Shown here: positions 21,117-45,981 of the stretch, piece after piece
Position numbering within the stretch: position 1 is the first letter of the stretch
Layout of the letters: each line of letters starts with the position of its first letter
Origin: Pediococcus acidilactici
GTDB taxonomy: Bacteria; Bacillota; Bacilli; Lactobacillales; Lactobacillaceae
Assembly: GCA_024970065.1 (NCBI GenBank)
Contig: CP103908.1
Location: 248,001 to 312,000, forward strand
Reading direction: 5' to 3'
Length of the DNA stretch: 64,000 bases
Position numbers and translations under genes: made by a program
Notes under the pieces: generated by a model
The model's input: only the letters and a program-made list of their open reading frames with translations
Databases searched by the model: none
What the model was told of the DNA's origin: nothing

Positions 21117-21132
21117 GGATTGAGGAAGGCTA

Positions 21133-22377: not shown

Positions 22378-22656
22378 ATGGAACATGAAGCATTAGGATT
22401 AATCGAAACAAAAGGTTTGGTTGCATCAATTGAAGCAGCGGATGCAATGGTTAAGGCAGCTAATGTTGATTTGATTGGTCAAGAAAAAATTGGCCATGGT
22501 TTAGTAACGGTAATGGTTCGCGGAGATGTTGGTGCGGTTAAGGCTTCGGTAGATGCTGGAGTAACGGCGGCTGAAGAGATTGGCGAAGTTCTTTCAAGCT
22601 ACGTAATCCCTCGTCCACACGCAGATGTTGAAAACATTTTGCCTAATAAAGAGTAA
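22378..22656 (+). CDS. pduA: Microcompartment shell protein PduA (BMC-H hexamer)
   Basis: 92 residues, a single BMC domain: [24 protein letters not shown] at the start and [14 protein letters not shown] later. It forms hexameric facets with a central pore for diol/glycerol entry. It is almost identical to PduJ at 29116, as in other pdu operons, and is the first gene of the main operon behind CGGAGG. A weak hairpin after it may raise its dosage relative to downstream genes. Confidence 0.95.
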
Positions 22657-22658
22657 TT

Positions 22659-22685
22659 AATTGTTAAAATAAACAATTTATTTTT
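22659..22685 (+). terminator. Weak attenuator-like hairpin between pduA and pduB
   Basis: AATTGTT (22659-22665) pairs with AACAATT (22672-22678), followed by TATTTTT. The short AT-only stem suggests partial termination or RNA stabilisation favouring pduA. Confidence 0.4.
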
Positions 22686-22712
22686 AAGCAGTTTTCATCT
22701 GGAGGGATGAAT

Positions 22713-23435: not shown

Positions 23436-23456
23436 TAAATGGAAAGGAGTAGTATT

Positions 23457-25133: not shown

Positions 25134-25151
25134 TCAAAGGAGGAAGCGTAA

Positions 25152-25880
25152 ATGTCTCAAACAATTGATGAAAACATATTAAGAAAAATCATAAGAGAAG
25201 TTTTGGCTGAGAACCAAAATATGGATACGCCAATTTCTTTTAAAGATGAGTCAACTTCTTCCGCCCAAAGTACGCAACCAAAGGTTGAAAGTGAGGACCG
25301 TTCCACAATTTCGCGGCCAGTTAGCGAGAAAAAGTTAAGCTGGTTTAAACACGTAGGTAAAGCTAAGCCAGGTTTTTCTAAAGACGAAGTAGTTATTGGG
25401 GTCGCACCTGCGTTTGCGGAAGTTTTGGAAAAGAATATGACGGGATTACCTCATAAAGATATTTTACGTCAAGTAATTGCGGGTATCGAAGAAGAAGGTT
25501 TAAAGGCTCGGGTAGTGAAAATTTATCGGACTTCAGACGTTTCATTTTGTGGTGCCGAAGCCGATAAATTGTCTGGTTCGGGTATTGCGGTAGCCATCCA
25601 GTCGAAAGGAACGGCGATTATTCACCAAAAGGATCAAGAACCGCTCTCTAATCTGGAATTATTCCCCCAAGCTCCAGTGCTGGACTTAGATACTTATCGG
25701 GCGATTGGTAAAAATGCGGCTGAATATGCAAAAGGAATGTCGCCAAATCCAGTGCCAACCGTGAATGATCAGATGGCTCGGGTAGCTTACCAAGCGATTT
25801 CAGCTTTAATGCATATTAAAGAAACTAAGCAAGTTGAACCTGGACGTCCGGCTGAAGAAATTGAAGTAAATTTTGATTAG
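25152..25880 (+). CDS. pduD: Diol/glycerol dehydratase medium subunit
   Basis: 242 residues. The first 18 residues ([19 protein letters not shown]) form an amphipathic encapsulation helix, followed by a low-complexity Ser/Thr/Gln linker to about residue 55. The beta-subunit domain has [15 protein letters not shown] and the base-side cobalamin contact region. AAAGGAGG precedes the ATG. It joins PduC and PduE in the (abc)2 enzyme within the microcompartment. Confidence 0.95.
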
Positions 25881-25891
25881 GAGGGAAAGTA

Positions 25892-26422
25892 ATGAGTGAA
25901 ATCGATGATTTAGTGGCCAAAATTATGAGCCAGATGGGCGATCAAGCTCCTAAAGATGAATCTAAAACAGCAACGCCCACTCCTTCTCAAACGGCGACTC
26001 ATGAGGCACCGTTAACGACAAAGGATTATCCACTTTATTCCAAGCATCCGGAATTAGTTCATTCACCATCGGGAAGTGATCTAGACGATCTCAATATTGA
26101 TAACGTTTTAAATGGCGAGGTTAAGCCTAAAGATTTACGAATCACAGCGGAAACACTACGGTTACAAGGACAAGTTGCAGTAGACTCCGGACGTGACGCG
26201 ATTCAAAAAAACTTCCAACGGGCTGCCGAATTAACCGTAATCCCTGATGAACGACTATTGGAAATGTATAACGCTTTACGGCCGTATCGCTCTACCAAAC
26301 AAGAACTGCTTGATATTGCTAAAGAATTGCGCGACCAGTATAATGCCAAAATTTGTGCAGACTGGTTTGAAGAAGCAGCCGAATTTTATGAAACCCGCAA
26401 AAAATTAAAGGGCGACAATTAA
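25892..26422 (+). CDS. pduE: Diol/glycerol dehydratase small subunit
   Basis: 176 residues. A short amphipathic N-terminus (SEIDDLVAKIMSQMG) and a Pro/Thr-rich linker precede the helical gamma-subunit domain, with ETLRLQGQVAVDSGRD and PDERLLEMYNALRPYRST. It starts 11 nt after pduD behind AGGAGGG. Confidence 0.95.
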   Translation: MSEIDDLVAKIMSQMGDQAPKDESKTATPTPSQTATHEAPLTTKDYPLYSKHPELVHSPSGSDLDDLNIDNVLNGEVKPKDLRITAETLRLQGQVAVDSGRDAIQKNFQRAAELTVIPDERLLEMYNALRPYRSTKQELLDIAKELRDQYNAKICADWFEEAAEFYETRKKLKGDN

Positions 26423-26433
26423 GGAGCATTTTT

Positions 26434-28263
26434 ATGAAACGTGTAATTGGAGTTGATATAGGGAATTCTTCAACCGAAGTTGCACTTGCTGAAGTATCTG
26501 ACCGTGGAGACGTTAAATTTATTGACTCTGGAATTTCAGCGACAACTGGAATTAAGGGGACTAAGCAAAATTTAATTGGAATTAAAAAATCGGTTGCGCA
26601 GGTTTTAGCGAAGACGCAACTAACACTTGATGATATTGACTTAATCAGGATTAACGAAGCTACTCCCGTAATTGGTGACGTAGCGATGGAGACTATTTCG
26701 GAAACCATTATCACCGAATCGACCATGATTGGGCATAATCCTAACACTCCTGGAGGGGTGGGGATTGGTTCTGGATATACGGTCAATCTTTTGAAACTGT
26801 TGCAAGAAAAGGATCGGCAAAAAAAGTATATCGTGGTAGTTCCTAAAGAAGTTGATTTTGCTGATGCAGCCCGGTTAATCAATTTATATAGCAAGGCTGG
26901 TTATCAAATCACGGCCGCAATTTTGCAAAATGATGATGGTGTTTTAATTGATAATCGACTCGATCGTAAAATTCCAATTGTGGATGAAGTGGCTTTAATT
27001 GAAAAGGTACCTTTAGGAATGTTAGCAGCTGTTGAGGTTGCGGATAAGGGTAAGGTGATTTCTCAACTATCTAACCCGTATGGAATTGCGACGTTGTTTG
27101 GCTTAGATTCGGCTGAAACAAAAAATATCGTTCCAGTTTCGCGAGCACTGATTGGCAATCGTTCCGCCGTAGTTATTAAAACTCCGGCAGGTGACGTTAA
27201 GGCACGGGTAATTCCGGCAGGTCGAATTAATATCCAGGGTGATCATGGTAGTGATTCCGTAGGCGTTTCTGCCGGAGCAGACGCCATCATGGATAAAATT
27301 ACTAGCTTTGACCGGATTACGAACATCACGGGTGAAGCTGGAACCAACGTTGGCGGAATGTTAGAAAAAGTTCGGCAGACAATGGCCGATTTGACCGGAA
27401 AGCAGAATAAAGAAATTGCCATTCAAGATTTATTAGCCGTCGATACATCAGTACCAATTAAGGTTCAAGGTGGTTTGGCTGGTGAATTTTCAACAGAACA
27501 AGCCGTTGGAATTGCCGCAATGGTCAAATCTGATCGACTACAAATGCAGAGAATTGCGGATTTGATTCAAAATGATTTGCACGTTCCAGTTGAAATTGGT
27601 GGTGCCGAAGCGGAGGCCGCAATTTTAGGGGCCTTAACTACTCCAGGAACAACCAAACCAATTGCTATCCTTGATTTGGGAGCGGGTTCTACCGATGCGT
27701 CAATTATTGATCAAAATAACCAGATTACCGCAATTCACTTAGCGGGTGCTGGTGACATGACCACGATGATGATTAATTCGGAATTGGGTATTAACGATAC
27801 TTATTTAGCGGAAGATATTAAGAAATATCCCCTTGCGAAGGTGGAAAACTTATTCCAAATTCGGCACGAAGACGGAACAGTACAGTTCTTTGACGAACCA
27901 CTTCCAGCAGATATTTTTGCTCGAGTGGTGGTTATTAAGCCTAATGGATACGTGCCGGTACCGGGAAATCTAAGCATTGAAAAGATTAAGCATGTCCGGC
28001 AAAGCGCCAAAAGGAAAGTCTTCGTGACTAATGCCCAGCGTGCATTGCGACACGTTAGTCCAACTGGTAATATTCGCGACATTCCGTTTGTAGTTATTGT
28101 AGGGGGGTCGGCGCTTGACTTCGAAATTCCACAGTTAGTTACTGATGCCCTGTCCCATTACAATTTGGTAGCTGGACGTGGCAATATCCGGTCGATTGAA
28201 GGTCCCCGGAATGCGGTCGCAACCGGTTTGATTTTATCGTATGCAAACAAGTTAAGGTCGTGA
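26434..28263 (+). CDS. pduG: Diol dehydratase reactivase large subunit
   Basis: 609 residues. An actin/Hsp70-like ATPase chaperone that exchanges damaged cobalamin for fresh cofactor. Phosphate-binding stretches are GVDIGNSSTEVALA at the N-terminus and AILDLGAGSTDASII near residue 410. The swivelling domain and the GGSALDFEIPQLV stretch agree with DdrA/PduG. It is coupled to pduE (11 nt) and pduH (5 nt). Confidence 0.95.
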   Translation: MKRVIGVDIGNSSTEVALAEVSDRGDVKFIDSGISATTGIKGTKQNLIGIKKSVAQVLAKTQLTLDDIDLIRINEATPVIGDVAMETISETIITESTMIGHNPNTPGGVGIGSGYTVNLLKLLQEKDRQKKYIVVVPKEVDFADAARLINLYSKAGYQITAAILQNDDGVLIDNRLDRKIPIVDEVALIEKVPLGMLAAVEVADKGKVISQLSNPYGIATLFGLDSAETKNIVPVSRALIGNRSAVVIKTPAGDVKARVIPAGRINIQGDHGSDSVGVSAGADAIMDKITSFDRITNITGEAGTNVGGMLEKVRQTMADLTGKQNKEIAIQDLLAVDTSVPIKVQGGLAGEFSTEQAVGIAAMVKSDRLQMQRIADLIQNDLHVPVEIGGAEAEAAILGALTTPGTTKPIAILDLGAGSTDASIIDQNNQITAIHLAGAGDMTTMMINSELGINDTYLAEDIKKYPLAKVENLFQIRHEDGTVQFFDEPLPADIFARVVVIKPNGYVPVPGNLSIEKIKHVRQSAKRKVFVTNAQRALRHVSPTGNIRDIPFVVIVGGSALDFEIPQLVTDALSHYNLVAGRGNIRSIEGPRNAVATGLILSYANKLRS

Positions 28264-28268
28264 TTTAA

Positions 28269-28625
28269 ATGAGTATGGAAAAACCATCAATTGTGATTGC
28301 CATGCGCGAAGGTGACGAAAATACCGATGATTTATCCCAGCTTTTCTATGGGATTGAAGAAGAGGAAATTCCATTTTCCTTCAAGACTATGGCGTTTGAC
28401 AATCCAGTTGAACGTGCGTACCAAGGTGCTTTGTTTTCGCGGTTATCGGTGGGAATTGCCTTTGACGATAAATCAGTAATTGTACACTATAAGAATTTAC
28501 CTAAATCAGAACCACTATTTAAAGTGGAGAAAAACAACTCCGCAAATTTGCGGATTTTAGGAGCCAACGCGGCACGCTTAGTAAAGGGCGTACCGTTCAA
28601 AAGATTAAATAAGGTGGTGAACTGA
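28269..28625 (+). CDS. pduH: Diol dehydratase reactivase small subunit
   Basis: 118 residues, a DdrB/PduH-type small subunit resembling the dehydratase beta-subunit fold (EEEIPFSFKTMAFD, LGANAARLVKGVPF). It pairs with PduG. The ribosome site before the ATG is weak (AAGG), so it probably depends on translational coupling to pduG. Confidence 0.92.
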   Translation: MSMEKPSIVIAMREGDENTDDLSQLFYGIEEEEIPFSFKTMAFDNPVERAYQGALFSRLSVGIAFDDKSVIVHYKNLPKSEPLFKVEKNNSANLRILGANAARLVKGVPFKRLNKVVN

Positions 28626-29090
28626 TTGAAAACATTAGGTTATCTAGAAGTTAAGGGCCTTACCAACGCGATTGTATCAGCCGATAAAATGCTAAAAACT
28701 GCCGACGTGGAATTAAAAAACATTTCCAATACGCGAGGGAGCGGTTGGGTAACGGTGGCCATTATTGGTGACGTTGCGGCAGTGAGTGTGGCAATCACTA
28801 TGGCAAAAGAAATGATGGGCGAAAACTACGTTAGCTCAACGGTATTAGCTAATCCTGCAGAAGGAATTGAGAAGCTTAATCGAACTGATTTATTGCTTAA
28901 GCCAACGGAACGAAAGCGTAAAGTTGCTAATGCTGAACCCGCAGATGCTGAAACACAGCAACCGACGGAAAAGCTTGAACCACAGAAGTCCGAAAAGTCT
29001 ATTTCAAAAGCGAAGGCAAAAAAAGAATCAAATAATAAAAAAGAATCTAATTCGAGTACTAAGAAACATCAAAAACAATCTAAAAAATAA
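28626..29090 (+). CDS. pduK: Shell protein PduK (BMC-H with lysine-rich tail)
   Basis: 154 residues. Residues 1-88 are a BMC domain (LGYLEVKGLTNAIVSADKML). Residues about 95-154 are a charged Lys/Glu/Ser/Gln tail of low complexity with no cysteine. Salmonella PduK has a C-terminal Fe-S-type extension; the tail here is different and may contact cargo or the cytoplasm. Start TTG at 28626, directly after the pduH stop, behind AAGGTGGTG. Confidence 0.9.
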   Translation: MKTLGYLEVKGLTNAIVSADKMLKTADVELKNISNTRGSGWVTVAIIGDVAAVSVAITMAKEMMGENYVSSTVLANPAEGIEKLNRTDLLLKPTERKRKVANAEPADAETQQPTEKLEPQKSEKSISKAKAKKESNNKKESNSSTKKHQKQSKK

Positions 29091-29115
29091 TTTATAAATT
29101 CAGGAGGAACATATT

Positions 29116-29391
29116 ATGAATAACGCATTAGGATTAATCGAAACAAAGGGTTTAGTTGCATCAATTGAAGCTGCAGATGCAATGGTTAAGGCAGCTAACG
29201 TACAAATGATCGGTCAAGAAAAAATTGGTAGCGGTTTAGTTACAATCATGGTTCGTGGAGATGTAGGTGCAGTTAAGGCATCAGTTGATGCTGGAGTTGC
29301 GGCAGCTGAAAACATTGGTGAAGTTGTTAGCTCTTACGTAATCCCTCGCCCACATGCTGAAGTTGAACGTATTTTACCATCAACAAAATAA
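29116..29391 (+). CDS. pduJ: Microcompartment shell protein PduJ (BMC-H)
   Basis: 91 residues, a single BMC domain nearly identical to PduA over residues 4-85, and probably a major shell hexamer. AGGAGG precedes the ATG. The few differences from PduA are in the N-terminus, residues 30-40 and the C-terminus. Confidence 0.94.
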
Positions 29392-29421
29392 AAATAGTTT
29401 TAATAAGGGTGGACGAGAATT

Positions 29422-30048
29422 ATGGATGAAGAACAACTACGGCAGTTAATTCGCAAAATTATAAAGGAAGAAACGGATCCTAATCGGATTCGCATTGGAG
29501 TTTCAAATCATCACATTCATTTAACTGATGAAGACTTTGCAACTTTATTTCCTGGCCAAGAAATGACGGTGTACAAACCGTTATACCAACATGAAGAATT
29601 TGCTTCGAACCAATTTGCAGACATTGTTGGTCCTCAAGGCACTATTAAACACGTGCGAATTTTAGGACCTAACCGGGCACATTCTCAAGTAGAAATTGCC
29701 CGTTCAGAAACTTTTGAATTAGGGATTGATGCACCTATTCGACTATCTGGTCATTTAGAAGGGGCTCCTTCCGTTAAGTTAGTTACTAAAGATGGAGAAG
29801 TAGAAGTTCAAGGGGTCATCGTTGCAAAACGGCATATTCACATGAGCCTAGAAGATGCTGCTCGCTTTGGCGTTAAGTTAGGTGACACGGTTAGCGTGGA
29901 AATCAATTCTGACGAACGCAGAACTATCTTTGATGACGTGATTTGCAGACCACGAAAAGATTTCTTGTTAGAAATGCACATTGATACTGATGAAGCTAAT
30001 GCAGCTAACGTAAATGCGAATACGTTCGGCAGAATCATCAAAAAATAA
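29422..30048 (+). CDS. pduL: Phosphate propanoyltransferase PduL
   Basis: 208 residues. Two PduL beta-barrel repeats have metal-binding histidine motifs SNHHIHL and KRHIHMS. It converts propionyl-CoA to propionyl phosphate and recycles CoA inside the compartment. Residues 1-17 (DEEQLRQLIRKIIKEE) form an encapsulation helix. The product goes to the acetate/propionate kinase at 34642. Confidence 0.94.
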   Translation: MDEEQLRQLIRKIIKEETDPNRIRIGVSNHHIHLTDEDFATLFPGQEMTVYKPLYQHEEFASNQFADIVGPQGTIKHVRILGPNRAHSQVEIARSETFELGIDAPIRLSGHLEGAPSVKLVTKDGEVEVQGVIVAKRHIHMSLEDAARFGVKLGDTVSVEINSDERRTIFDDVICRPRKDFLLEMHIDTDEANAANVNANTFGRIIKK

Positions 30049-30070
30049 ATGAAATTGGAGGGTGAATGGA

Positions 30071-30577
30071 ATGGATCCGATTGTTGCTCAAGTAATTGAA
30101 AAATTAAAACAGAGGAATGCGCAATCCAGTGAAATTACCTACTCCAAAAATGCTGCCGTTCCCTCAACGGAAATATTTGTTGATAATGCCAATTTAGTTT
30201 TAAAACAAGTTTCAATTGAGCTGATTGCGGATCTATTTCACCTTGATCCAAGTAATCATTGGGTGACCTGGATTTTACAAGGACTCGATTATGATGTGAA
30301 TTTCCAGTTAAACGTGAGTCATCATGCACTTAATTTTATTCCGCTAGTAATGATTAGGGACTGGCCGGTTATGTTTGTTATTAACGGTGAACATCCGGTA
30401 TATGCTTTTTACCCAACTACGATTACAAGAGAAATGTTGGCAGGCATTCCAGATAGCGCAATGGTAATAACGACAAGCACGCAAAATATTACTGCGGGTG
30501 CCGAAGAAATAAGCAGCCAAAAGGATTTAAAAATACAAGTAAGGACTGATGAAAATTGTATATGGCAAAAGTTGTAG
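30071..30577 (+). CDS. pduM: Microcompartment protein PduM
   Basis: 168 residues. Its position between pduL and pduN and the N-terminal helix DPIVAQVIEKLKQRN are as in PduM, which is needed for normal assembly in Salmonella but whose exact role is unclear. The sequence is poorly conserved, so the call leans on context. The ATG at 30071 has GGAGGG upstream, and the 3' end overlaps pduN by 16 nt. Confidence 0.8.
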   Translation: MDPIVAQVIEKLKQRNAQSSEITYSKNAAVPSTEIFVDNANLVLKQVSIELIADLFHLDPSNHWVTWILQGLDYDVNFQLNVSHHALNFIPLVMIRDWPVMFVINGEHPVYAFYPTTITREMLAGIPDSAMVITTSTQNITAGAEEISSQKDLKIQVRTDENCIWQKL

Positions 30578-30828
30578 GCAGCGTGGTGTCTACCCAAAAA
30601 GATAAATCATTAGTTGGTCGTAAATTAATGATTGTAAGAGCGATTGATTCGCAAGGCAAACCCGTGCGCCCGGAAGAAGTTGCCGTGGATTCAGTCGGTG
30701 CTGGTATTGGAGAATACGTACTGCTTGTACGCGGAGCGGGTGCCCGGATTGCTAACCATGCGGATAAAAACTTTCGTGACGTGAGCGACTGCGCAATTGT
30801 AGGCATTATTGACAGTTTCGACAAGTAA
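30562..30828 (+). CDS. pduN: Microcompartment vertex protein PduN (EutN/CcmL pentamer)
   Basis: 88 residues of the EutN/CcmL family: AKVVGSVVSTQKDKSLVGRKL and VDSVGAGIGEYVLLVRG. Pentamers close the vertices of the shell. The ATG at 30562 lies within the end of pduM, indicating coupling. Confidence 0.94.
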   Translation: MAKVVGSVVSTQKDKSLVGRKLMIVRAIDSQGKPVRPEEVAVDSVGAGIGEYVLLVRGAGARIANHADKNFRDVSDCAIVGIIDSFDK

Positions 30829-30842
30829 GGAGATGTAGCAAA

Positions 30843-31421
30843 ATGCCAATCTATACCAAAGGTGGAGATAAGGGATCAACGAGCCTTTACGACGGCAAAC
30901 GAGTGCATAAAGACTCTTTACGAGTAGAAACGTACGGTACGTTTGATGAACTGAACGCCAATATTAGCGTGGCGGATAAGCTTTGTTTAAGCAAAAAGAA
31001 TCAAGAAATCTTGAAAAAAGTTGAATACAAAATGTTCTTTTTACAGGGAGAAATTGCTACTTTAGATACCCAAAAATTTTTAAAAAATAGTGTAACCATT
31101 GAAGAACAAGACGTACTCGATTTGGAAAAGGTTATTGATGAATATACAGCTGAATTGCCACCCGTAAAATCTTTTATATTGCCTGGCTCAAGCTTGGCAG
31201 GTGCTCAGCTACACGTATGTCGGACGGTTTGCCGGAGAGCGGAACGCCGTTTTGTTCAGTTTGCTAGTGAAACTACCGTTAGACCAGTACTTGAAAAATA
31301 CGTTAACCGCTTATCTGATTTCTTTTACATTTTAGCGCGGTCTGAAGATTACGAAGACTATTTAACTAAGGTGACTGAGGAAGTAATTAAAAGATATCGC
31401 GCGTATTTTGCGGAGAGCTAA
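30843..31421 (+). CDS. pduO: ATP:cob(I)alamin adenosyltransferase PduO
   Basis: 192 residues. Motifs TKGGDKGSTSLYDG (ATP site), GTFDELNANISVA and VCRRAERR are those of PduO-type adenosyltransferases. It makes adenosylcobalamin for PduCDE from imported corrinoid. The C-terminal GlcG-like domain of full-length PduO is absent here and is present as the separate gene at 31578. Confidence 0.95.
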   Translation: MPIYTKGGDKGSTSLYDGKRVHKDSLRVETYGTFDELNANISVADKLCLSKKNQEILKKVEYKMFFLQGEIATLDTQKFLKNSVTIEEQDVLDLEKVIDEYTAELPPVKSFILPGSSLAGAQLHVCRTVCRRAERRFVQFASETTVRPVLEKYVNRLSDFFYILARSEDYEDYLTKVTEEVIKRYRAYFAES

Positions 31422-31442
31422 TGGACGAGTAGCCTAGGAATT

Positions 31443-31492
31443 AACTAAATTTCGTGATAAATCGCTAACGTGGTTGGTGACGAAATTTAGTT
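31443..31492 (+). other. Intra-operon hairpin between pduO and GlcG-like gene
   Basis: AACTAAATTTCGT (31443-31455) and ACGAAATTTAGTT (31480-31492) form a perfect 13-bp stem with a 24-nt loop. There is no T-run. The AACTAAATT arm recalls the hairpins at 13788 and 49153. It may process or protect the pdu transcript. Confidence 0.6.
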
Positions 31493-31577
31493 GATTTCGT
31501 AATGGCTGACGGTTGTTGGTTTTGGAATGAAGAGGAAGGTTTTTAACCTTTTAGACGATTTGTTGAGGGCGAATGGA

Positions 31578-32057
31578 ATGAATGAAGAGCAAATTAATAA
31601 CATTGTTAAAGAAATAATTACTAAACAAGGCAATCAATTAGGAAACTTATTTGATCGGCAAAAAATGCAAAGAGTGTTTGATGCAGCCGTAGCTAAGGCT
31701 AATGAGTTAAATGTAGGCGTTACCATGTGCATCATGGACGCAGCTACCGTTGTTCAAATGCTTTACCACATGCCTAACGCTAATTTGGTTAGTTCTCAAT
31801 TAGCGCCTAAAAAAGCTTGGTCGGCAATTGCAATGAAAGAGCCTACCAAGGATATCAGCAAAGATATCCAACCAGGTGCACCGCTATACCAAATGGAAAC
31901 GATGTTAGATGGAAAATTAGTGTCTTTTCCAGGAGGAATTCCGTTAGAAATTGGCGGTAAGATTGTCGGAGCGATTGGTGTTAGCGGGGGATTGGTTGAA
32001 GAAGATCAAGCAATTTGTGAGACCGCTGTGGAAGAATTTATGAAGGAGAGCAAGTGA
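31578..32057 (+). CDS. GlcG/HbpS-like protein (PduO C-terminal domain homologue)
   Basis: 159 residues. A short N-terminal helix (NEEQINNIVKEIITKQ) looks like an encapsulation peptide. A GlcG/HbpS domain follows: VFDAAVAKANELNVGVTMCI and GGIPLEIGGKIVGAIGVSGG. In Salmonella this domain is fused to PduO and binds haem; here it is split off. I choose ATG 31578, behind GAGGG; a longer form from 31527 lacks a ribosome site. A haem or corrinoid ligand is possible. Confidence 0.82.
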   Translation: MNEEQINNIVKEIITKQGNQLGNLFDRQKMQRVFDAAVAKANELNVGVTMCIMDAATVVQMLYHMPNANLVSSQLAPKKAWSAIAMKEPTKDISKDIQPGAPLYQMETMLDGKLVSFPGGIPLEIGGKIVGAIGVSGGLVEEDQAICETAVEEFMKESK

Positions 32058-32058
32058 A

Positions 32059-33492
32059 ATGGAAATTCAAAATCTTGAAGAAGATATTCGACGCATTTTA
32101 AGTGAAGAGCTAAAGAAGAGTGGTACTAGCCAAACTGCGTCAACTAATGATGCGGGACAAAATGGGATTTTTAAGACCGTGGACGAGGCGATTGCGGCAG
32201 CTAAGGCAGCTGAAGATGTTTATATTGATAAGCCGTTAGCTTTTCGGGAAAAGGTTTTGACGGCAATTAGAGAAGGATTCCGCCCATATATCGAAAAAAT
32301 GGCTAAGGACATCAAAGATGAAACGGGAATGGGAACTGTTGAAGCTAAGATTGCTAAGTTAAACAATGCTTTGTACAACACTCCCGGAACGGAAATCTTA
32401 CAACCAGAAGCCGAAACTGGTGACGGCGGTTTAGTAATGTACGAATACGCCCCATTTGGTGTAATTGGTGCGGTTGGTCCAAGTACGAATCCTTCCGAAA
32501 CGGTTATCGCTAACGCCATCATGATGTTAGCTGGTGGTAACACGTTATACTTTGGTGCTCATCCAGGTGCTAAAAAAATTACCCGTTGGACGATCGAAAA
32601 GCTAAACGAGTTAGTTTACGAAGCTACCGGAATGAAGAATTTAGTTGTATCAATTGAAGAACCGTCAATTGAATCTGTTCAAGAAATGATGCAACATCCT
32701 GATATCGCAATGTTATCCATCACGGGTGGTCCAGCAGTGGTTCACCAAGCTTTAGTTAGTGGTAAGAAAGCTGTAGGGGCCGGTGCAGGTAACCCGCCAG
32801 CAATGGTTGATGCTACCGCTAATATTGCATTAGCTGCACACAACATTGTGGATTCAGCTTCTTTTGATAACAACATCCTCTGTACCGCAGAAAAAGAAGT
32901 AGTAGTTGAATCGAGTGTAAAGGACGAACTTATCAAAAAAATGCAAGCAGAAGGGGCATTCTTGGTAACTAATGCTAGCGATATTGATAAGTTAGCGGAA
33001 ATGACCATTGGCAATAATGGCGCTCCTGACCGTCAATTTGTTGGGAAAGACGCAACCTACATTTTAGATAAGGCAGGAATTGCGTACACTGGTACACCAA
33101 AATTAATCATCATGGAAGCGCAAAAAGATCATCCACTAGTTACTACCGAAATGTTGATGCCAATTGTACCAGTAGTTTCTTGTCCAACATTTGATCAAGT
33201 TTTAGCGACTGCGGTAGAAGTTGAACAAGGTTTACATCATACGGCTTCAATTCACTCCGAAAACTTACCAAATATTAATCGTGCAGCTCACCGGATGAAC
33301 ACTTCGATTTTCGTAGTTAACGGAGCAACATACGTAGGAACTGGAGTAGGAGCTAATGGCGCTCACGCAGGGGCTTCAGCATTAACGATTGCAACCCCAA
33401 CTGGAGAAGGTACCGCAACGGCTAAAACCTTTACTCGTCGCCGGCGGTTAAACTCGCCAGAAGCATTCTCGTTACGTTCATGGGAGGCATAA
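32059..33492 (+). CDS. pduP: CoA-acylating propionaldehyde dehydrogenase
   Basis: 477 residues of the aldehyde dehydrogenase superfamily. The N-terminal 18 residues (EIQNLEEDIRRILSEELKK) are an encapsulation helix. The catalytic cysteine is in FDNNILCTAEKEVV, and the CoA/NAD loop region is GAVGPSTNPSETVIANAI. It oxidises propionaldehyde or 3-hydroxypropionaldehyde to the acyl-CoA inside the shell. AAGGAG precedes the ATG. Confidence 0.95.
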   Translation: MEIQNLEEDIRRILSEELKKSGTSQTASTNDAGQNGIFKTVDEAIAAAKAAEDVYIDKPLAFREKVLTAIREGFRPYIEKMAKDIKDETGMGTVEAKIAKLNNALYNTPGTEILQPEAETGDGGLVMYEYAPFGVIGAVGPSTNPSETVIANAIMMLAGGNTLYFGAHPGAKKITRWTIEKLNELVYEATGMKNLVVSIEEPSIESVQEMMQHPDIAMLSITGGPAVVHQALVSGKKAVGAGAGNPPAMVDATANIALAAHNIVDSASFDNNILCTAEKEVVVESSVKDELIKKMQAEGAFLVTNASDIDKLAEMTIGNNGAPDRQFVGKDATYILDKAGIAYTGTPKLIIMEAQKDHPLVTTEMLMPIVPVVSCPTFDQVLATAVEVEQGLHHTASIHSENLPNINRAAHRMNTSIFVVNGATYVGTGVGANGAHAGASALTIATPTGEGTATAKTFTRRRRLNSPEAFSLRSWEA

Positions 33493-33496
33493 TTTT

Positions 33497-34618
33497 ATGG
33501 AAAGAATTGCAATTCCAACTCAAATTTATTCTGGCACCGATAGCTTAAAGCAATTGGGAAAGTTAAACCAAGAACACGTTTTAATGGTATGTGATGCTTT
33601 TTTGCCAGGGACGCCAACCTTAGAAGAAATTAAGGGAAACATAAATTCGAGCAATCAGGTAACTATTTTCTCAGATGTTAAACCCGACCCACCATTAAAA
33701 AACATTATGCAAGGGGTTAACGAATATTTAAAGAACGTGCCTACGGTAATGATTGGTATCGGGGGTGGTTCAGCGATTGATACAGGAAAGGCAATTCGCT
33801 TCTTCGGTGAAAAACTTTCTGGTAAATGTATTAAGGAATTTATTGCCATCCCAACTACTAGTGGGACTGGTTCAGAAGTAACTAATACGGCGGTAATCTC
33901 GGATCCAGAAAATCATCAAAAATTCCCAATCATGGAGGATTACCTGATTCCAGACGTTGCACTTTTGGACCCGCAATTGGTAATGACCGCTCCTAACAGT
34001 GTAACCGCTTTTTCTGGTTTGGATGTTTTAACCCATGCTCTAGAAGCAGTTGTTGCGCAAGATGCGAATACCATTACGGATGCTTTGGCAGAAAAAAGTG
34101 CTTCGGTAATTATCAATAATTTGGTTGAATGCTACCAACATGGTGATAACGAAGCGGCTCGTAAAGTTGTACATGAGGCATCTTGTGCGGCAGGAGCTGC
34201 CTTTAATAATGCTGGTTTGGGGATTTGTCATGCGATTGCGCACCAGTTGGGAGCAAATTTCCATATTCCTCATGGTTTAGCTAACGCAATGTTATTGCCA
34301 TACGTAGTTGAATATAATGCTACTCACAGCCAATTAGCACTACAAAAATATGCAATGGTTGCACGTAAAGCGGGACTAGCAAGTTCAGGTATGGGTGATC
34401 GGGTTGCCGTACGTAAACTGCAAGCTCAAATTAAACAAATGGCTAGAAAAATGAATTGCCCAGCAACGTTAACTGCATTTGGGGTAAATACCAAGGCAGC
34501 ATTAGAAGCAACGGATCAAATTGTTGCTAGCGCTAAGTTGGACGGTACTTTCCCAGGAAATCCAGTCGTGCCAACTGATGAAGATTTAGCAGAGATTTAT
34601 AAAAAAATCGTTAAATAA
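33497..34618 (+). CDS. pduQ: Iron-dependent propanol dehydrogenase
   Basis: 373 residues, a group III Fe-ADH. The NAD loop is GIGGGSAIDTGKAI. Metal ligands are in SGLDVLTHALEA and GICHAIAHQLGANFHIPHG. It reduces propionaldehyde to propanol, or 3-HPA to 1,3-propanediol, and regenerates NAD+ for PduP in the compartment. It starts 4 nt after pduP. Confidence 0.94.
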   Translation: MERIAIPTQIYSGTDSLKQLGKLNQEHVLMVCDAFLPGTPTLEEIKGNINSSNQVTIFSDVKPDPPLKNIMQGVNEYLKNVPTVMIGIGGGSAIDTGKAIRFFGEKLSGKCIKEFIAIPTTSGTGSEVTNTAVISDPENHQKFPIMEDYLIPDVALLDPQLVMTAPNSVTAFSGLDVLTHALEAVVAQDANTITDALAEKSASVIINNLVECYQHGDNEAARKVVHEASCAAGAAFNNAGLGICHAIAHQLGANFHIPHGLANAMLLPYVVEYNATHSQLALQKYAMVARKAGLASSGMGDRVAVRKLQAQIKQMARKMNCPATLTAFGVNTKAALEATDQIVASAKLDGTFPGNPVVPTDEDLAEIYKKIVK

Positions 34619-34641
34619 AGATTTTCAGGAAGGTAATTAGG

Positions 34642-35829
34642 ATGTCCAAAAAGATATTATCAATTAATTCAGGAAGTTCATCATTAAAATTCAAACTTTA
34701 TCAAATGCCCGAAGAAAAAGTGTTAGCGAGTGGACAAGTTGACCGAATTGGGCTTGCAAATAGCACGTTTAATTACGTAGTTCATAATAAGGCTACCCAG
34801 AATAAAGTTCCGATAAAAAACCATGATGATGCCATTAAGGCAGTTATTAATATGCTTTTGACTAGTGGAGTCATTGAGGATAAGTCGGAAATTGTGGGAG
34901 TTGGCCACCGAGTTTCCCACGGAGGACGGTACTACGATCGTCCAGTACTAGTTGACGAAGATGTAAAAAAACGGATTGCGGAATTAAGCGTATTATCACC
35001 GTTGCATAACCCGGTTAACTTGATTGGCATTAAAGATTTCGAAAAATTATTACCAGCAGCTAAGGAAGTCGCAGTTTTTGATACTTCTTTCCATCATACG
35101 ATGCCTGAAGAAGCATATATGTATGCACTGCCTTACGAATATTATGAAAAGTACGGTATTCGTCGCTACGGTTTTCATGGACCATCTCATGAATATGTGT
35201 CTGAACGGGCAACAGAACTATTTGGTAAGGAACGTACCTCCAAAATGATTACTTGTCATCTTGGAAATGGTAGCAGTTTATGTGCTGTTAAGGACGGTGA
35301 ATCCGTAAATACTTCAATGGGATTTACACCCTTAGCTGGTTTAGTAATGGGCAGCCGTTCTGGAGATATTGATCCAGAAATCTTACCTTTCATCGAAGAA
35401 AAATTAGATTTGGACTCCGAAGCGGTTCGAGAAATGCTAAATAAGCGTTCTGGATTGCTGGGGTTATCTGGAGTATCTAGCGATGTTCGAGATGTTGAAA
35501 AAGCTGCTAACGAAGGTAACCAACGGGCCCAATTAGCAATCAAAGTCTTTGTGCACCAAATTCAACATTACATTGGTGCGTATGCTGCGGATTTGAATGG
35601 TCTGGATACGTTGGTCTTTACAGCGGGAATCGGCGAACATTCTATCACCATGCGTAAGGCAATTTGTGAGAAATTGGGTTACCTCGGCGTCAAAATTGAT
35701 GACCAAAAAAATCAGCATGGCGATTTATCCATTGAAGCGGCGGATAGTAAAGTCAAAGTTGCGGTGATTCCAACTGATGAAGAAATCATAATCGCCCGAG
35801 ACGTGATGCGAGTGGCTGGATTTAATTAA
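34642..35829 (+). CDS. pduW: Acetate/propionate kinase
   Basis: 395 residues, a full-length AckA fold: ILSINSGSSSLKFKLYQMP, GVGHRVSHGGRYY, HLGNGSSLCAVKDG and FTAGIGEHS. It makes ATP from the propionyl phosphate formed by PduL. Its position in the operon supports the PduW role, though acetyl phosphate should also be a substrate. Confidence 0.93.
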   Translation: MSKKILSINSGSSSLKFKLYQMPEEKVLASGQVDRIGLANSTFNYVVHNKATQNKVPIKNHDDAIKAVINMLLTSGVIEDKSEIVGVGHRVSHGGRYYDRPVLVDEDVKKRIAELSVLSPLHNPVNLIGIKDFEKLLPAAKEVAVFDTSFHHTMPEEAYMYALPYEYYEKYGIRRYGFHGPSHEYVSERATELFGKERTSKMITCHLGNGSSLCAVKDGESVNTSMGFTPLAGLVMGSRSGDIDPEILPFIEEKLDLDSEAVREMLNKRSGLLGLSGVSSDVRDVEKAANEGNQRAQLAIKVFVHQIQHYIGAYAADLNGLDTLVFTAGIGEHSITMRKAICEKLGYLGVKIDDQKNQHGDLSIEAADSKVKVAVIPTDEEIIIARDVMRVAGFN

Positions 35830-35841
35830 ACGAGGTTGATA

Positions 35842-36189
35842 ATGATGATCGAAGATAAAGCAAGAATGATTCAAGAATATGTTCCGGGAAAGCAAGTGAC
35901 CTTAGCCCACATCGTAGCTAATCCTACGGAAGATATTTACGAGAAACTTGGAATCCAAACTCCTAAGAATGCTTTAGGAATTTTAACGATCACCCCTAGT
36001 GAAGCTTCAATTATTGCAGGGGACGTGGCAACTAAGTCGAGCAACGTAACGTTAGGATTTATTGACCGCTTTAGTGGTTCCGTAGTAATTGTAGGGGAAG
36101 TTTCAGAAGTAGAGTCGGCATTACGGAAGGTAATTAAAACTTTACACGAACTTTTAGGATTTGATATTCCAACAATTACACGTACGTGA
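35842..36189 (+). CDS. pduU: Shell protein PduU (circularly permuted BMC)
   Basis: 115 residues. [21 protein letters not shown] and [20 protein letters not shown] match PduU/EutS shell proteins, whose permuted fold forms hexamers with an N-terminal beta-barrel plug. ATG 35842 lies 6 nt after ACGAGG. Confidence 0.92.
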
Positions 36190-39502: not shown

Positions 39503-40609
39503 TTAACGAAAATCCACGTACATCCATTGGACTACGGAGACGCCCTTGGTAGAAATTAAATCCGCGGAGTTAGTAGGTTGGCGACCATCAACGGTAAAAA
39601 TCCAACCACTCTTTTCGTTTGCGTCAGTTAAATCACCAATACTATTAACGTATAAGTAGCCGTTGGCGGACTCATAATAATAGTCTAGATTTTGCTTCGT
39701 AAAGAATGTTTTGGAAACGTCAAAAACGGAAGCATTTTTAGGCCAGTCTAAAGTGTGGTGGATCGTGTATATACGACTAATGGCTGCATTTTCCTTACGA
39801 TATTTAGACGGGGTGGTTCCGGTGATTTTTTTAAATATTTTAGTGAAATAACTAGTTTGCGAAAAGCCCGCGATGTTAGAAATTAAGTTGATTGGTTTAC
39901 GACTTAAAATTAATTCCCTTTGGGCATGGGCAATTTTTTGTTGATTAATGTAATTGATAAAATTAATGTCCATATACTTTTTGAAAATCCGACTTAAATA
40001 AGACGGTGATAAGAAAACATGTTCCGCCACGGTACTAAGGGTTAATTGACTAGTAAGGTTCTCACAAATATAGTCAGTGGCCTCCTTAATACTCCGGATA
40101 GCTTCAAATTTTTCATTACTAGTTCGAATTTGAGGATCTTCTGCAGTCGCAATTGGTAAGACATTATTAGCCGAACTTTTTAGCTGCAATAATGTGCTCA
40201 AATAATTTATTTTAGTTAATTGTTCGTCAGTTAGTGGCTCCAAAACTAGCGCCGTTAAATCCTGACGGTTAGCAAAATGACTATTAAATAAATTGGATAG
40301 ATATTCTTTTGATACCTGAATTCGGTGATTGGAAGACTTGGCCGAACTGCACATCGTAAACCCCCAAACCTTATTATTAAGAATGATTGGGAAGATGATC
40401 GACTTGCCAAAATGTTCTGGATCAAGCGTCTTTTGGATAACTTTATTGTCAGTGATAATATCGCCCCGGTAAACTAATACTCCAGTAAAGCTATAGAAAA
40501 GTACGTCAATTTGGGTGATTTCATAAAAAGCGTTTAATGAATTGGCAAGCTTAGTATAAGAGTCCGGTGTATATCGATCGTCATGTGTCTGATTCAATGC
40601 ACTTAACAT
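39503..40609 (-). CDS. pocR: AraC-family pdu activator PocR with C-terminal DUF4430-like domain
   Basis: 368 residues. Residues about 15-120 are a PocR-type sensory domain (SLNAFYEITQIDVLFYSFTG, FGKSIIFPIILNNKVWGFT). Residues about 172-270 are two AraC HTHs (LSTVAEHVFLSPSYLSRIFK, ISNIAGFSQTSYFTKIFKK). The last 85 residues are unexpected: GYLYVNSIGDL, KSGWIFTVDG and VVQWMYVDFR line up with the DUF4430 domain of the surface protein at 21133 (YVNRIGKY, GWKYYVNN, LYWRFVDGY). PocR activates pdu genes in relatives. The extra domain suggests sensing of cobalamin. ATG 40609 is 6 nt after AGGAGG. Confidence 0.85.
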   Translation of the reverse strand: MLSALNQTHDDRYTPDSYTKLANSLNAFYEITQIDVLFYSFTGVLVYRGDIITDNKVIQKTLDPEHFGKSIIFPIILNNKVWGFTMCSSAKSSNHRIQVSKEYLSNLFNSHFANRQDLTALVLEPLTDEQLTKINYLSTLLQLKSSANNVLPIATAEDPQIRTSNEKFEAIRSIKEATDYICENLTSQLTLSTVAEHVFLSPSYLSRIFKKYMDINFINYINQQKIAHAQRELILSRKPINLISNIAGFSQTSYFTKIFKKITGTTPSKYRKENAAISRIYTIHHTLDWPKNASVFDVSKTFFTKQNLDYYYESANGYLYVNSIGDLTDANEKSGWIFTVDGRQPTNSADLISTKGVSVVQWMYVDFR

Positions 40610-40628
40610 GATCAACCTCCTAATAAAA

Positions 40629-40648
40629 ATTATATGAAAACGATTTCT
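40629..40648 (-). promoter_or_regulatory. cre site and -10 box of pocR
   Basis: On the minus strand the -10 box TATAAT is at 40634-40629, directly downstream of a cre match whose plus-strand sequence is TGAAAACGATTTCT (40635-40648). CcpA would block pocR transcription. Confidence 0.6.
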
Positions 40649-40717
40649 TTCGATTAATTATGAGGCAAGAAATTACTATTCACAATGCAATATAATGTCA
40701 ATTTATTGATAAAATGA

Positions 40718-40748
40718 CAATATTTTTAGTAAAACTTGTAAAATATTG
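40718..40748. promoter_or_regulatory. Inverted repeat between pocR and ECF operon, candidate PocR site
   Basis: CAATATTTT (40718-40726) and AAAATATTG (40740-40748) are perfect inverted arms 13 bp apart. The AATATTTTAC half-site also occurs upstream of pduA. A shared activator site is inferred. Confidence 0.4.
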
Positions 40749-40796
40749 CGAACAAAACAAGATAGTACAAATACTCGAGAAAGGACAAATTATTAC

Positions 40797-40874
40797 TACT
40801 TTTTGGGGAAAAAGTATCACTTTCGCAGTTTCGGGAATGGTACCGTTAAAGTAACCATTTTTAAAGAAAGTGAT
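40797..40874 (+). promoter_or_regulatory. Structured leader of the ECF operon with ribosome-site pairing
   Basis: TACTTTTTGGGGAAAAAGTA (40797-40816) is a perfect hairpin. ATCACTTTC (40816-40824) can pair with GAAAGTGAT (40866-40874), the sequence 5 nt before the ATG, enclosing AATGGT/ACCATT (40836-40841, 40854-40859). The layout suggests translation control. There is no B12-box, so it is not a classical cobalamin riboswitch. Confidence 0.5.
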
Positions 40875-40879
40875 TATAG

Positions 40880-41803
40880 ATGAAAGAGCAGCCTATTAAA
40901 ACAAAGGTTAAGAAGCAAAATATGTCCCTTGAGTTTGAGCGGTTAAATCCGGCTATTATTTTTTCGTATTACCTGATGTTAATTTTGATTACGGTTTTAT
41001 TTAATTCACCGATTGTTTTAATAATTGAATTCATCGCAGTTTTAGGGCTATTAATCCGGGTTTCTGATCCAACTACGGCATTTAAGACGCTCAGGGCAAC
41101 TGGAATAATGGCGTTATTTATTATCATTATTAATCCGTTGACGAATCATAACGGGGCGCACTTATTAGTGGTTTTTCATGGGTTAACGGTTACTAAAGAA
41201 GCTTTGTTATACGGAGTGTTGATGGCGTTATCGTTAACCAACGTAATTTTACTTTTTGCCTCGTACAACAAACTGATGACTAATAATAAATTTATGTTTT
41301 TATTTGGTAAGATTTTGCCCCGACTTTCATTACTCACGATGATTGTAATGCGTTTTATCCCGCTGTTTTTAAAGCGCTTTAAAAGTATTGGTCAAATTCA
41401 AAAAATGAGGGGAATCAACATTAATAAAGGAAGCGTGCGTCAACGTACTAAAGCGTTAATGCAGTTAATGCAAGTACTGTTGGTGGATGCGTGTTATAAC
41501 GCTTTTCAAACTGCAGATTCAATGACTGCTCGCGGATTTGGGAGCACAAAAAGGACGAATTACCAACGTTACCAGATGACCCATCGTGATATAACGTACG
41601 CAGGAATTCTAGTTGGAGGTGGGGCAATTTTAATTGGGGAAGCAATTCGCCGAGTGGGCGTAATACAAATTTATCCCAGTTTACAAATGGATTGGGGAAC
41701 GTGGCAAAGCGAGGTGCTCCTTGCTGGAACGGTCGCTCTGATTTGTGGTTTACCTATGGTTGTAGAGTTGAAGGAGGAGCTTTGGTGGAAATTTTACAAG
41801 TAA
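40880..41803 (+). CDS. ecfT: ECF transporter transmembrane (T) component
   Basis: 307 residues. The membrane protein has hydrophobic segments in its N-terminal half, the cytoplasmic coupling helices with the Arg-Gly motifs KMRGININKG and TARGFGSTKR, and two extra C-terminal segments. It links the S component to the ATPase. Its end overlaps the start of the ATPase gene by 19 nt. A dedicated T gene in the same operon as A and S marks a group I ECF system. Confidence 0.87.
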   Translation: MKEQPIKTKVKKQNMSLEFERLNPAIIFSYYLMLILITVLFNSPIVLIIEFIAVLGLLIRVSDPTTAFKTLRATGIMALFIIIINPLTNHNGAHLLVVFHGLTVTKEALLYGVLMALSLTNVILLFASYNKLMTNNKFMFLFGKILPRLSLLTMIVMRFIPLFLKRFKSIGQIQKMRGININKGSVRQRTKALMQLMQVLLVDACYNAFQTADSMTARGFGSTKRTNYQRYQMTHRDITYAGILVGGGAILIGEAIRRVGVIQIYPSLQMDWGTWQSEVLLAGTVALICGLPMVVELKEELWWKFYK

Positions 41804-43431
41804 AAGATTTAAATTTTAAGTATGCCCTTGCCAAAAAAGTTAACTTAGCAAAGGTTAATTTGAGCGTTAACCAAGGCGATTTCACACTCATTATTGGTGA
41901 TTCAGGAAGCGGCAAAACCACTTTATTGAGGCAACTAAAAAAAGAATTATGGCCAGTTGGTGAGCGACACGGAACGATTAAATTTAAAAACCAACCTTTA
42001 GAGGATCTATCACCGATTGAAAGTGCCCAAAAAATCGGGATGGTATTTCAAAATCCTGATGACCAACTTGTAATGGATACGGTAATCCAAGAACTCGCCT
42101 TTTCATTGGAAAACGTGGGGGAAGATAGCGATAATATTCAACGAAAAATTGCTGAAATGGTCAGCTTTTTTGGGTTTCAAGATATTTTATATGCATCGGT
42201 AAACGAACTTTCTGGTGGTCAAAAGCAGTTGGTTAACTTAGCAGCAGTATTAATTTTGCAACCGGAATTGCTGCTTTTAGACGAACCCACCGCCCAACTA
42301 GATCCCATTGCGACTAAGGAGTTCATTAGCCTTTTACAAAGGGTGCATGACGAATTGGGCGTAACAATTATGATTAGCGAACATCAATTAGACGAGTTGC
42401 TACCGTTAGCTACTCAATTATGCATTTTGGAAGAAGGCAAATTAACGTTCGTTGGTAAAGTTAGTGAAGGAATTCAACGAGCTGCCCATAGCCAAAAATT
42501 GGCCGAATTTATTCCAGAAATTCCCCGCTTGTTTTTGACCGAAAACGTAATTACGGATTCTTCAAAAGCTACCGTACCATTAACGGTGGTCGATGGTAAA
42601 CGCTTTATAAATAATCATAAAATAAAATTTCAGCAACAAAAACGAAGTATCCCACAATTACATAATGACCCGGTTTTAAAAGCTACTCACGTTGACTTTA
42701 AGTATGAGCGAAATGATCCATTAATTTTGAATGATCTAGCGTTGACTGTGCAACGTGGTGAATGGTTATCGATTGTTGGGCGCAACGGAACTGGTAAGTC
42801 TACCCTGTTAAAGTGTCTAACAGGGATGCAAAAAACACGGCGAGGAAAGATATCCGTGTTAAATCGCAAACTTACTAAATGGACAAGTGATCAGTTATAC
42901 GAAGTGATGGGGTACTTATCCCAAAATCCTGCTGATCATTTTAGTTATGATACGGTGTCCGATGAATTTGTTAATCGCGCGAAGGAGCTGGGATTGACAG
43001 ACCCTCAAGAAGTTGGGCAAGCAATGCTATCACGTTTGAAAATTAACTCTTTGAAGAATAAAAATCCTCACGATACAAGCGGGGGCGAAAAGCAATTAAT
43101 CGCCTTGGGAATTATCCTGATTGGCCAGCCGAAGATTTTACTCCTAGATGAACCTACGAAGGGGTTGGACCCGCTACGTAAAAGAGAATTAGGGAAGTTA
43201 TTACAAAAACTCCAAGAAACAGGGATGACCATTATCACCACTAGTCATGACATGAGCTTTAGTGCTACGTACGCCACCCGTTGTGCCATGTTGTTCGATG
43301 GTAAAATCACTTCCGTAGCGGATCCGTACGCTTTTTTTACCAAAAATTTCTTTTATACCACTCCGATTAACCGAATGGTGCGTGATCAGTTGCCAGAGGC
43401 GCTAATATGGAGGGAGCTTAACTATGAATAA
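41785..43431 (+). CDS. ecfA: ECF transporter ATPase, two fused ABC domains
   Basis: 548 residues. Domain 1 (about 1-240) has Walker A GDSGSGKT, signature LSGGQKQ and LLLLDEPTAQLD. Domain 2 (about 300-535) has GRNGTGKS, TSGGEKQ and ILLLDEPTKGLD. This corresponds to EcfA and EcfA' in one chain. I choose GTG 41785, 7 nt after GGAGG; longer frames overlap ecfT more and have no ribosome site. It overlaps the S gene by 8 nt. Confidence 0.9.
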   Translation: MEILQVKDLNFKYALAKKVNLAKVNLSVNQGDFTLIIGDSGSGKTTLLRQLKKELWPVGERHGTIKFKNQPLEDLSPIESAQKIGMVFQNPDDQLVMDTVIQELAFSLENVGEDSDNIQRKIAEMVSFFGFQDILYASVNELSGGQKQLVNLAAVLILQPELLLLDEPTAQLDPIATKEFISLLQRVHDELGVTIMISEHQLDELLPLATQLCILEEGKLTFVGKVSEGIQRAAHSQKLAEFIPEIPRLFLTENVITDSSKATVPLTVVDGKRFINNHKIKFQQQKRSIPQLHNDPVLKATHVDFKYERNDPLILNDLALTVQRGEWLSIVGRNGTGKSTLLKCLTGMQKTRRGKISVLNRKLTKWTSDQLYEVMGYLSQNPADHFSYDTVSDEFVNRAKELGLTDPQEVGQAMLSRLKINSLKNKNPHDTSGGEKQLIALGIILIGQPKILLLDEPTKGLDPLRKRELGKLLQKLQETGMTIITTSHDMSFSATYATRCAMLFDGKITSVADPYAFFTKNFFYTTPINRMVRDQLPEALIWRELNYE

Positions 43432-44113
43432 GCGGATGACGGGAATTACTTTTTTAGTGGCAATTATTATTTTTTTGATTTTTCTAACTTTTGTAACCGC
43501 ACTCCAAGGTCAACATTTTCTTCTGTTCAGTTTTATCTGTTTGATTGCTAGCGTAATTCCGTTTTATTGGAAATTTGAAAATAGCGAACTCAAAGCACGA
43601 GAAGTGGTATTTTTGGCGGTGTTAATTGCGATCGCTGCAGTTAGTCGAGTACCGTTTGCAATTATTCCGAACGTCCAGCCAACTAGTTTTGTGATTATAA
43701 CGGCGGGGGCGGTATTAGGACCAGAATCGGGATTTATTATTGGCTCTACCGTTGCGTTGACATCTAATATGTTTCTTGGACAAGGGCCATGGACCCCGTG
43801 GCAGATGTTTGCCTGGGGAATGATGGGGATGACGGCAGGATTGCTAAAAAACACTTGGTTAGCTAATAACAAATACGTGATGGTAATTTTTGGCTTCGTT
43901 TGGGGATTTATTTTCGGGTGGATTATGGACCTTTGGTATTTAGTTGCATACATTAATCCGCTGAATCTTAAGGCGATGTTACTTACTTTTCTAGGAACTG
44001 GTTACTTTGACTTATTACATGCTTTATCAAACGTCTTTTTCTTGTTAATTTTTTATAATTCTTGGAAAAAGATTATTACCCGTTTCAAGATTAAGTACGG
44101 GTTACTTGATTGA
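43424..44113 (+). CDS. cbrT: ECF transporter S component, CbrT-like (cobalamin candidate)
   Basis: 229 residues with about six hydrophobic segments. The core ITAGAVLGPESGFIIGSTVAL and GQGPWTPWQMFAWGMMGMTAG is typical of the CbrT-type S proteins that carry cobalamin in lactobacilli. The pdu context, the B12-dependent enzymes and the DUF4430 proteins all support cobalamin, but the specificity is not proven by sequence. It is translationally coupled to the ATPase gene. Confidence 0.78.
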   Translation: MNKRMTGITFLVAIIIFLIFLTFVTALQGQHFLLFSFICLIASVIPFYWKFENSELKAREVVFLAVLIAIAAVSRVPFAIIPNVQPTSFVIITAGAVLGPESGFIIGSTVALTSNMFLGQGPWTPWQMFAWGMMGMTAGLLKNTWLANNKYVMVIFGFVWGFIFGWIMDLWYLVAYINPLNLKAMLLTFLGTGYFDLLHALSNVFFLLIFYNSWKKIITRFKIKYGLLD

Positions 44114-45686: not shown

Positions 45687-45981
45687 GTTTCTGCATCCCC
45701 CTGTAATAACGCGATAAACAAAGCTTTTGAAAGGCAACGTCGATTGCAGAATTAAGTATAACACGATTCGGTGAAACAAATAATTTTGGTAACGAACCTT
45801 TTAGACCAATTTGGCAGAATGTTTTTTAAAAAAACATTTTAAGGTAAATAAAAAACGTTTTTTAATGAAGAAAACTTAGAAACTATTTGGAAGTAGCTTG
45901 CTTTTATAGTCGTAAATGAATTATGATATTATATGGAAAAATTGAATAAACTCAATATCTTATAATCTTTTGGAGGCAAAC

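Follow-up and report, generated by a model that had tools for sequence, protein, structure and literature searches.

A PocR-type AraC regulator of Pediococcus acidilactici with a transcobalamin-like C-terminal domain, a candidate vitamin B12 sensor

In Listeria, the pdu activator PocR is available only when vitamin B12 is present: the gate is an antisense RNA controlled by the aspocR/Rli39 cobalamin riboswitch, B12 shortage lengthening the transcript against pocR, and the protein itself carries the PF10114 domain and no C-terminal tail (PMC7677406). EutR of Salmonella and Escherichia coli is an AraC-family activator requiring both its substrate and adenosylcobalamin, with no transcobalamin-like tail reported in the available text (PMC5821096). 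In 2007, Burroughs, Balaji, Iyer and Aravind described AraC-SLBB fusions in Lactobacillus, for which they named B12, its precursors or another ligand as the probable signal, a wording softened at a reviewer's request (PMC1796856). Santos et al. (2011) reported that mutants of Lreu_1750, the pocR of L. reuteri, no longer produce detectable B12, and that Lreu_1750 and its L. brevis homologue have approximately 60 additional C-terminal residues (PMC3162504). We analyzed a 64,000-nucleotide stretch of the Pediococcus acidilactici genome (contig CP103908.1, positions 248,001 to 312,000; hereafter the window), which encodes a 368-residue PocR-type AraC regulator with a C-terminal DUF4430 domain. It shares its architecture, genus group (Lactobacillus) and suggested ligand with the 2007 fusions and does not differ from them in kind. 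An earlier, sequence-only reading of this DNA knew of no described regulator of this kind, a statement superseded by the 2007 prediction and by the characterization of the L. reuteri homologue as PocR. To that prediction we add gene context, distribution, structure, a riboswitch comparison and the link to PocR; what is new is the joining of the 2007 prediction to the 2011 regulator and the contrast with B12 riboswitches. No later work on an AraC-DUF4430/SLBB fusion was found in the literature searched, whose coverage leaves out most subscription journals.

The regulator and its domains are as follows.
39503..40609, minus strand: PocR-type AraC regulator with C-terminal DUF4430 domain, 368 residues (open reading frame [ORF] and Pfam)
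40235..40567, minus strand: N-terminal domain, residues 15-125, mixed alpha/beta (structure model; no Pfam match)
39785..40099, minus strand: AraC DNA-binding domain, residues 171-275 (Pfam and model)
39509..39781, minus strand: transcobalamin-beta-like (DUF4430/SLBB) domain, residues 277-367 (Pfam, predicted fold and profiles)

On balance we lean toward the view that this is a PocR-type activator of the B12-dependent pdu genes, probably also of adjacent B12 uptake genes, in which a cytosolic copy of the transcobalamin beta domain has been fused onto the DNA-binding domain as a B12 sensor. That view starts from the observed fusion, fold, conservation and gene context of the tailed regulator. 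The gene begins with ATG at 40609, an in-frame TTG lying 6 bases further upstream. Residues 181-272 form the double helix-turn-helix of the AraC family (HTH_18, 74.8 bits; HTH_AraC, 66.3 bits), separated from the N-terminal domain (approximately residues 15-125) by a low-confidence stretch of the model. DUF4430 matches residues 293-364 with 32.2 bits in the whole protein and 37.0 bits in the tail alone (Pfam cut-off 23.8 bits), so that an AraC helix-turn-helix and an SLBB domain stand in one polypeptide, as in the 2007 one-component regulators. The tail had earlier been recognized as foreign to the PocR and AraC domains from about residue 284; its separateness is borne out by Pfam, but in the full-length model it starts at approximately 277, immediately past the last AraC helix and without a linker.

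The genome encodes two DUF4430 proteins, the regulator and a surface protein at 21133-21591 (40.4 bits). The by-eye alignment of the tail to this protein, encoded approximately 18 kb away, is upheld by BLASTP (E 2e-5 over 51 residues) and by profile-profile comparison (97.7% probability, E 1.8e-12), in the same alignment register. The latter compared tailed with surface rows having none in common; it replaces a comparison dropped because the same five surface rows were present in both alignments. The tail is modeled as a beta-grasp fold with a hairpin insert after the helix, as in DUF4430/transcobalamin-like SLBB domains, and by structure the model matches the beta domains of transcobalamin, intrinsic factor and haptocorrin along the full length of the tail at 10-15% identity. 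The tail-only model included the five surface rows in its input, and the full-length model, built without them, gave the same fold. Pfam score, fold match and profile-profile comparison together rule out a chance resemblance to DUF4430 and the carriers. As had been proposed from the letters, the tail is a DUF4430 domain whose modeled fold is not an unrelated one but that of the beta domain facing cobalamin in intrinsic factor and transcobalamin; the carriers, however, are extracellular and have a separate alpha domain.

We use the name PocR on the strength of the L. reuteri homologue and gene context, because PF10114 matches none of 21 homologues at E 0.1 and nothing in the P. acidilactici genome, and because the regulator scores 102 bits against the cut-off of 500 for the NCBIfam PocR equivalog NF047788; to that extent the PocR identity assumed earlier holds by homology and context and fails by these profiles. 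A weak profile link (40% probability, E 3e-4) connects the N-terminal domain to the canonical PocR domain. The L. reuteri homologue (L036) has 359 residues, the length given for Lreu_1750, is approximately 37-39% identical to the window protein and carries the tail; the available text of its published genetics gives no attention to the domain or to a B12 response (PMC3162504).

Tailed regulators were matched at E 1e-30 or better in 20 of 301 Lactobacillaceae genomes. The survey for the extension proposed in the sequence-only reading found it in 25 of 26 such matches, which, the window's own included, extend to residue 365 or beyond; the remaining one (L028) has an eroded tail. This rules out a single-strain accident as the tail's origin. 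Alignment A1 comprises 21 of the 26, leaving out four near-duplicates (L009, L017, L023 and L024) and the tail-less L028; L033 is outside alignments A1, A2, A3 and A8, and the frame-broken L038 is outside all alignments and the last riboswitch scan. Separately, L038 (10001-11038) is the pocR of Lentilactobacillus kosonis, frame-broken in the record. The 21 aligned sequences are on average 54% identical in the DNA-binding domain, 46% in the tail and 32% in the N-terminal domain; all match DUF4430 at E 0.1, and I324, G335, W336, D341, Q344, P345, Q361 and W362 are invariant in the tail. Synonymous divergence (dS) is saturated in most pairs, so its ratio to nonsynonymous divergence (dN/dS) is little informative.

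Diol dehydratase is encoded in 28 of the 301 genomes, EutB above cut-off in 12, and either in 30. All 20 tailed genomes fall among those 30, 19 of them with diol dehydratase (p 3.7e-24, kinship ignored). PF10114 occurs in six other genomes and never together with a tailed PocR, an exclusion that is not significant (p 0.66); the three PF10114 regulators read (L135, L138, whose protein is identical to Loigolactobacillus L043, and L139) have a Cys-rich stretch and no tail. Outside the family, no match reaching far into the tail occurred among the matches listed from 198 order-level genomes, some of them of the family itself, and 219 phylum-level genomes.

The genes of the window that bear on this regulator lie on both sides of it.
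20025..21116, plus strand: alpha-repeat surface protein, weak match to squalene-cyclase C-terminal repeats
21133..21591, plus strand: surface DUF4430 protein (Pfam)
22378..36189, plus strand: pdu cluster, with a PduA-like shell gene, PduB, PduC, PduG, PduL, PduO, aldehyde dehydrogenase to acetate kinase, and an ORF at 35836
40610..40879, no strand: divergent intergenic region between pocR and the energy-coupling factor (ECF) transporter genes
40880-41803, plus strand: CbiQ-type EcfT of the ECF transporter (40880..44113)
41692-43431, plus strand: double ATPase of the ECF transporter
43424-44113, plus strand: S component of the ECF transporter

The pdu cluster is the presumed target of the regulator. 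pocR and the ECF genes are oriented divergently, and the alpha/beta pair stands at the far end of pdu; both of its proteins begin with a hydrophobic signal- or anchor-like segment. The alpha-repeat protein is likely the counterpart of the intrinsic factor alpha domain, and the adjacency of the two genes (20025-21591) resembles an intrinsic factor split over two genes. Surface SLBB proteins encoded with CbiO/CbiQ were proposed as B12 scavengers in 2007 (PMC1796856). In four Levilactobacillus loci (L031, L032, L040 and L041), ECF, alpha-repeat and surface DUF4430 genes adjoin pocR in a row, with pdu on the other side of pocR in three, and from such neighbors in relatives the putative substrate of the window's ECF transporter is a corrinoid.

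Among 24 tailed loci of 14-20 kb each (the eroded L114 excluded), neighbors are pdu at 15, hem/cob at 5, ECF uptake genes at 5 and eut with cbi at 1. At least one such neighbor is present at 21; the three with none (L113, L125 and L133) lie near contig ends and are counted as misses. Hem/cob genes, named by eye, occur at L033, L035 and L039. At L042, from Limosilactobacillus rudii, eutB, eutC and eutA are identified by Pfam and cobT lies on the other side of pocR, whose N-terminal part has a broken reading frame in the record. EutB, EutC, EutA, EutH, CobT, CbiB and a CbiA-type protein are Pfam-confirmed, and the names hem/cob, EutV/W, EutG, EutL and pduU were given by eye and transferred by tblastn.

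Other features were noted. An FGGY-family kinase gene (44187-45779) lies near pocR and adjoins it in several Lentilactobacillus and Secundilactobacillus loci. A T-box leader candidate (55317-55565; 87.6 bits against a gathering score of 93) precedes the ORF at 55613. What we take to be the cre (CcpA) consensus fits upstream of pocR at 40634-40648 (0 mismatches), of the PduA-like gene at 22296-22310 (0) and of the alpha-repeat gene at 19988-20002 (1), candidate sites hinting at glucose repression of all three. A search for a PocR box gave no shared motif above shuffled sequence.

Searches of the window for cobalamin riboswitches gave no hit, whether at the gathering threshold, at E 5 or with a local covariance model trained on ten Lactobacillaceae riboswitches, and the P. 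acidilactici genome gave none at E 0.001; the riboswitch antisense to pocR that marks aspocR-type gating was thus not detected at this regulator. The local model recovered the riboswitches of L173 and L187, members of its training set, and of L188, L189 and L192, outside it. With this model neither the window nor any of the 24 tailed loci had a hit below E 0.5; the lowest E among the tailed loci was 0.59, for one stretch in L125, and among the named loci 0.54, for one in L035. A search of 30 whole genomes with RF00174 found no cobalamin riboswitch in 15 of the 20 tailed genomes, with 59 candidates scored in 12 of the 20 and misses possible; four more (G084, G155, G263 and G294) have only a eut riboswitch, and in G199 the riboswitch precedes the gene of a large surface DUF4430 protein. 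A pdu-cluster riboswitch is present in 4 of 9 diol-dehydratase genomes without the tailed regulator versus 0 of 19 with it (p 0.006), the four representing two genera and part of the pdu cluster lying outside the locally scanned stretch in some tailed genomes. In G123 and G170 it lies on the opposite strand 94-200 bases past the 3′ end of a PF10114 pocR, the layout of Listeria (PMC7677406); in G143 and G166 it is flanked by eutP and a pduU-like gene. The Loigolactobacillus-type loci L187 (5527-6854) and L189 (7638-8867) have an opposite-strand cobalamin riboswitch just past the 3′ end of a canonical pocR, like Listeria aspocR.

A wider proposal, that a transcobalamin-fold adenosylcobalamin sensor joined to an AraC activator has replaced B12 riboswitches at pdu and B12 synthesis or uptake loci of Lactobacillaceae, an RNA gate giving way to a protein gate and to a predicted class of intracellular B12 sensor, is one we hold tentatively and at less than even odds. 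All seven eut loci with a two-component pair taken as EutV/EutW carry an adenosylcobalamin riboswitch (79.5-109.7 bits), and six short eut loci are without pair and riboswitch alike. Both are also missing from the eut locus of L. rudii (L042, 3990-10882), which lies beside its broken tailed pocR. A swap of EutVW and riboswitch for the tailed regulator at this locus was not counted, because its pocR is frame-broken in the record and because regulator and riboswitch system coexist in G155; the broken gene also lowered our estimate for the wider proposal slightly. The eut loci leave the choice between tail and riboswitch undecided.

Expression data from L. brevis bear on the pdu gate. Judged by its perfect matches to the forward primers for eutB, pduC and pduB of L. 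brevis ATCC 14869, genome G084 is L. brevis or very near it; its tailed pocR adjoins pdu, and no riboswitch was found in that stretch. In ATCC 14869, ethanolamine and adenosylcobalamin given together altered 116 genes, pdu and eut among them, against 14 for ethanolamine alone and none for adenosylcobalamin alone (PMC11086012), a pattern consistent with an AND gate at pdu. We take only the pdu response as support, because eut has a riboswitch and the two-component pair taken as EutVW, which account for its need for adenosylcobalamin. In the mechanism we propose, the tail would bind a cobalamin, most likely adenosylcobalamin, and binding would alter the adjoining AraC domain; alternatively, the tail may close against another region of the regulator, in the way that the transcobalamin alpha and beta domains close on cobalamin. 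With the N-terminal domain reading substrate, pdu expression would need substrate and cofactor, and the tail would play in this lineage the part that falls to a B12 riboswitch for PocR in Listeria and, judging from the gene arrangement, in Loigolactobacillus. Cobalamin as ligand is plausible and better supported by context than before. Of the two roles suggested in the sequence-only reading, control of pdu by B12 supply is favored by the comparative evidence, but contact with the capture system is unlikely, because the alpha/beta proteins, with their hydrophobic N-terminal segments, presumably sit outside the membrane and the regulator is a DNA-binding protein.

Several points weigh against a B12-sensing tail. 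Profiles of the tail, the surface domain and the alpha protein found no transcobalamin-family chain in the PDB, fold comparison alone giving the match, and Foldseek gave the tail no match with E ≤ 0.001; identity to the carriers is 10-15%, and they clasp B12 between two domains, yet the regulator has no alpha domain. Proximity to cob and pdu proves little, because the tail-less PocR of Salmonella and Listeria also controls these genes. Overexpressed L. reuteri PocR raises pdu and cob genes without glycerol (PMC3162504), L. reuteri makes its own B12, and the L. brevis pdu response may be indirect, through ethanolamine breakdown products. Five of the nine diol-dehydratase genomes without a tailed regulator (G024, G033, G043, G114 and G142) also lack a pdu-cluster riboswitch, and in an L. 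brevis-like genome a second PocR paralogue (L114, 9303-10238; the L028 gene) with an eroded tail stands beside an ECF/alpha/DUF4430 operon.

The tail could instead be a structural or dimerization module, or bind RNA polymerase, without any ligand, the B12 dependence of pdu arising elsewhere. Its linker-free junction with the DNA-binding domain and the function of canonical PocR without a tail speak for this, but the tail is restricted to genomes with B12-dependent enzymes and in the model retains the fold, hairpin included, of its ligand-binding relatives, and we think it unlikely. That the SLBB fold is reused for a small noncorrinoid ligand would agree with the never-varying tail residues D341, Q344 and P345, which differ from the surface domains (N for D341), and with the 2007 authors and reviewer having left the ligand of helix-turn-helix-fused members open (PMC1796856); we consider it distinctly unlikely, as the common factor of the neighborhoods is B12 and not one substrate, the genes serving diols, B12 synthesis, B12 uptake and, once each at L112 and L042, ethanolamine. 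Feedback, in which plentiful B12 would bind the tail chiefly to turn activity down and so save on synthesis and uptake, leaving the pdu link secondary, would be expected of hem/cob copies without pdu in the stretch read (L109, L115, L116, L118, L033, L035 and L039), where no cobalamin riboswitch was found, but we give it little credence, since L. brevis pdu rises only with adenosylcobalamin plus ethanolamine, the opposite sense (PMC11086012), and L. reuteri PocR activates both pdu and cob (PMC3162504).

If the tail is a B12 sensor, it would explain the coupling of pdu to cofactor supply without a riboswitch in diol-using lactobacilli, which include producers of reuterin, 1,3-propanediol and B12, and would identify the extra C-terminal residues that were reported for L. 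reuteri PocR in 2011. The fold of the human B12-uptake carriers would then join the intracellular sensors of B12.
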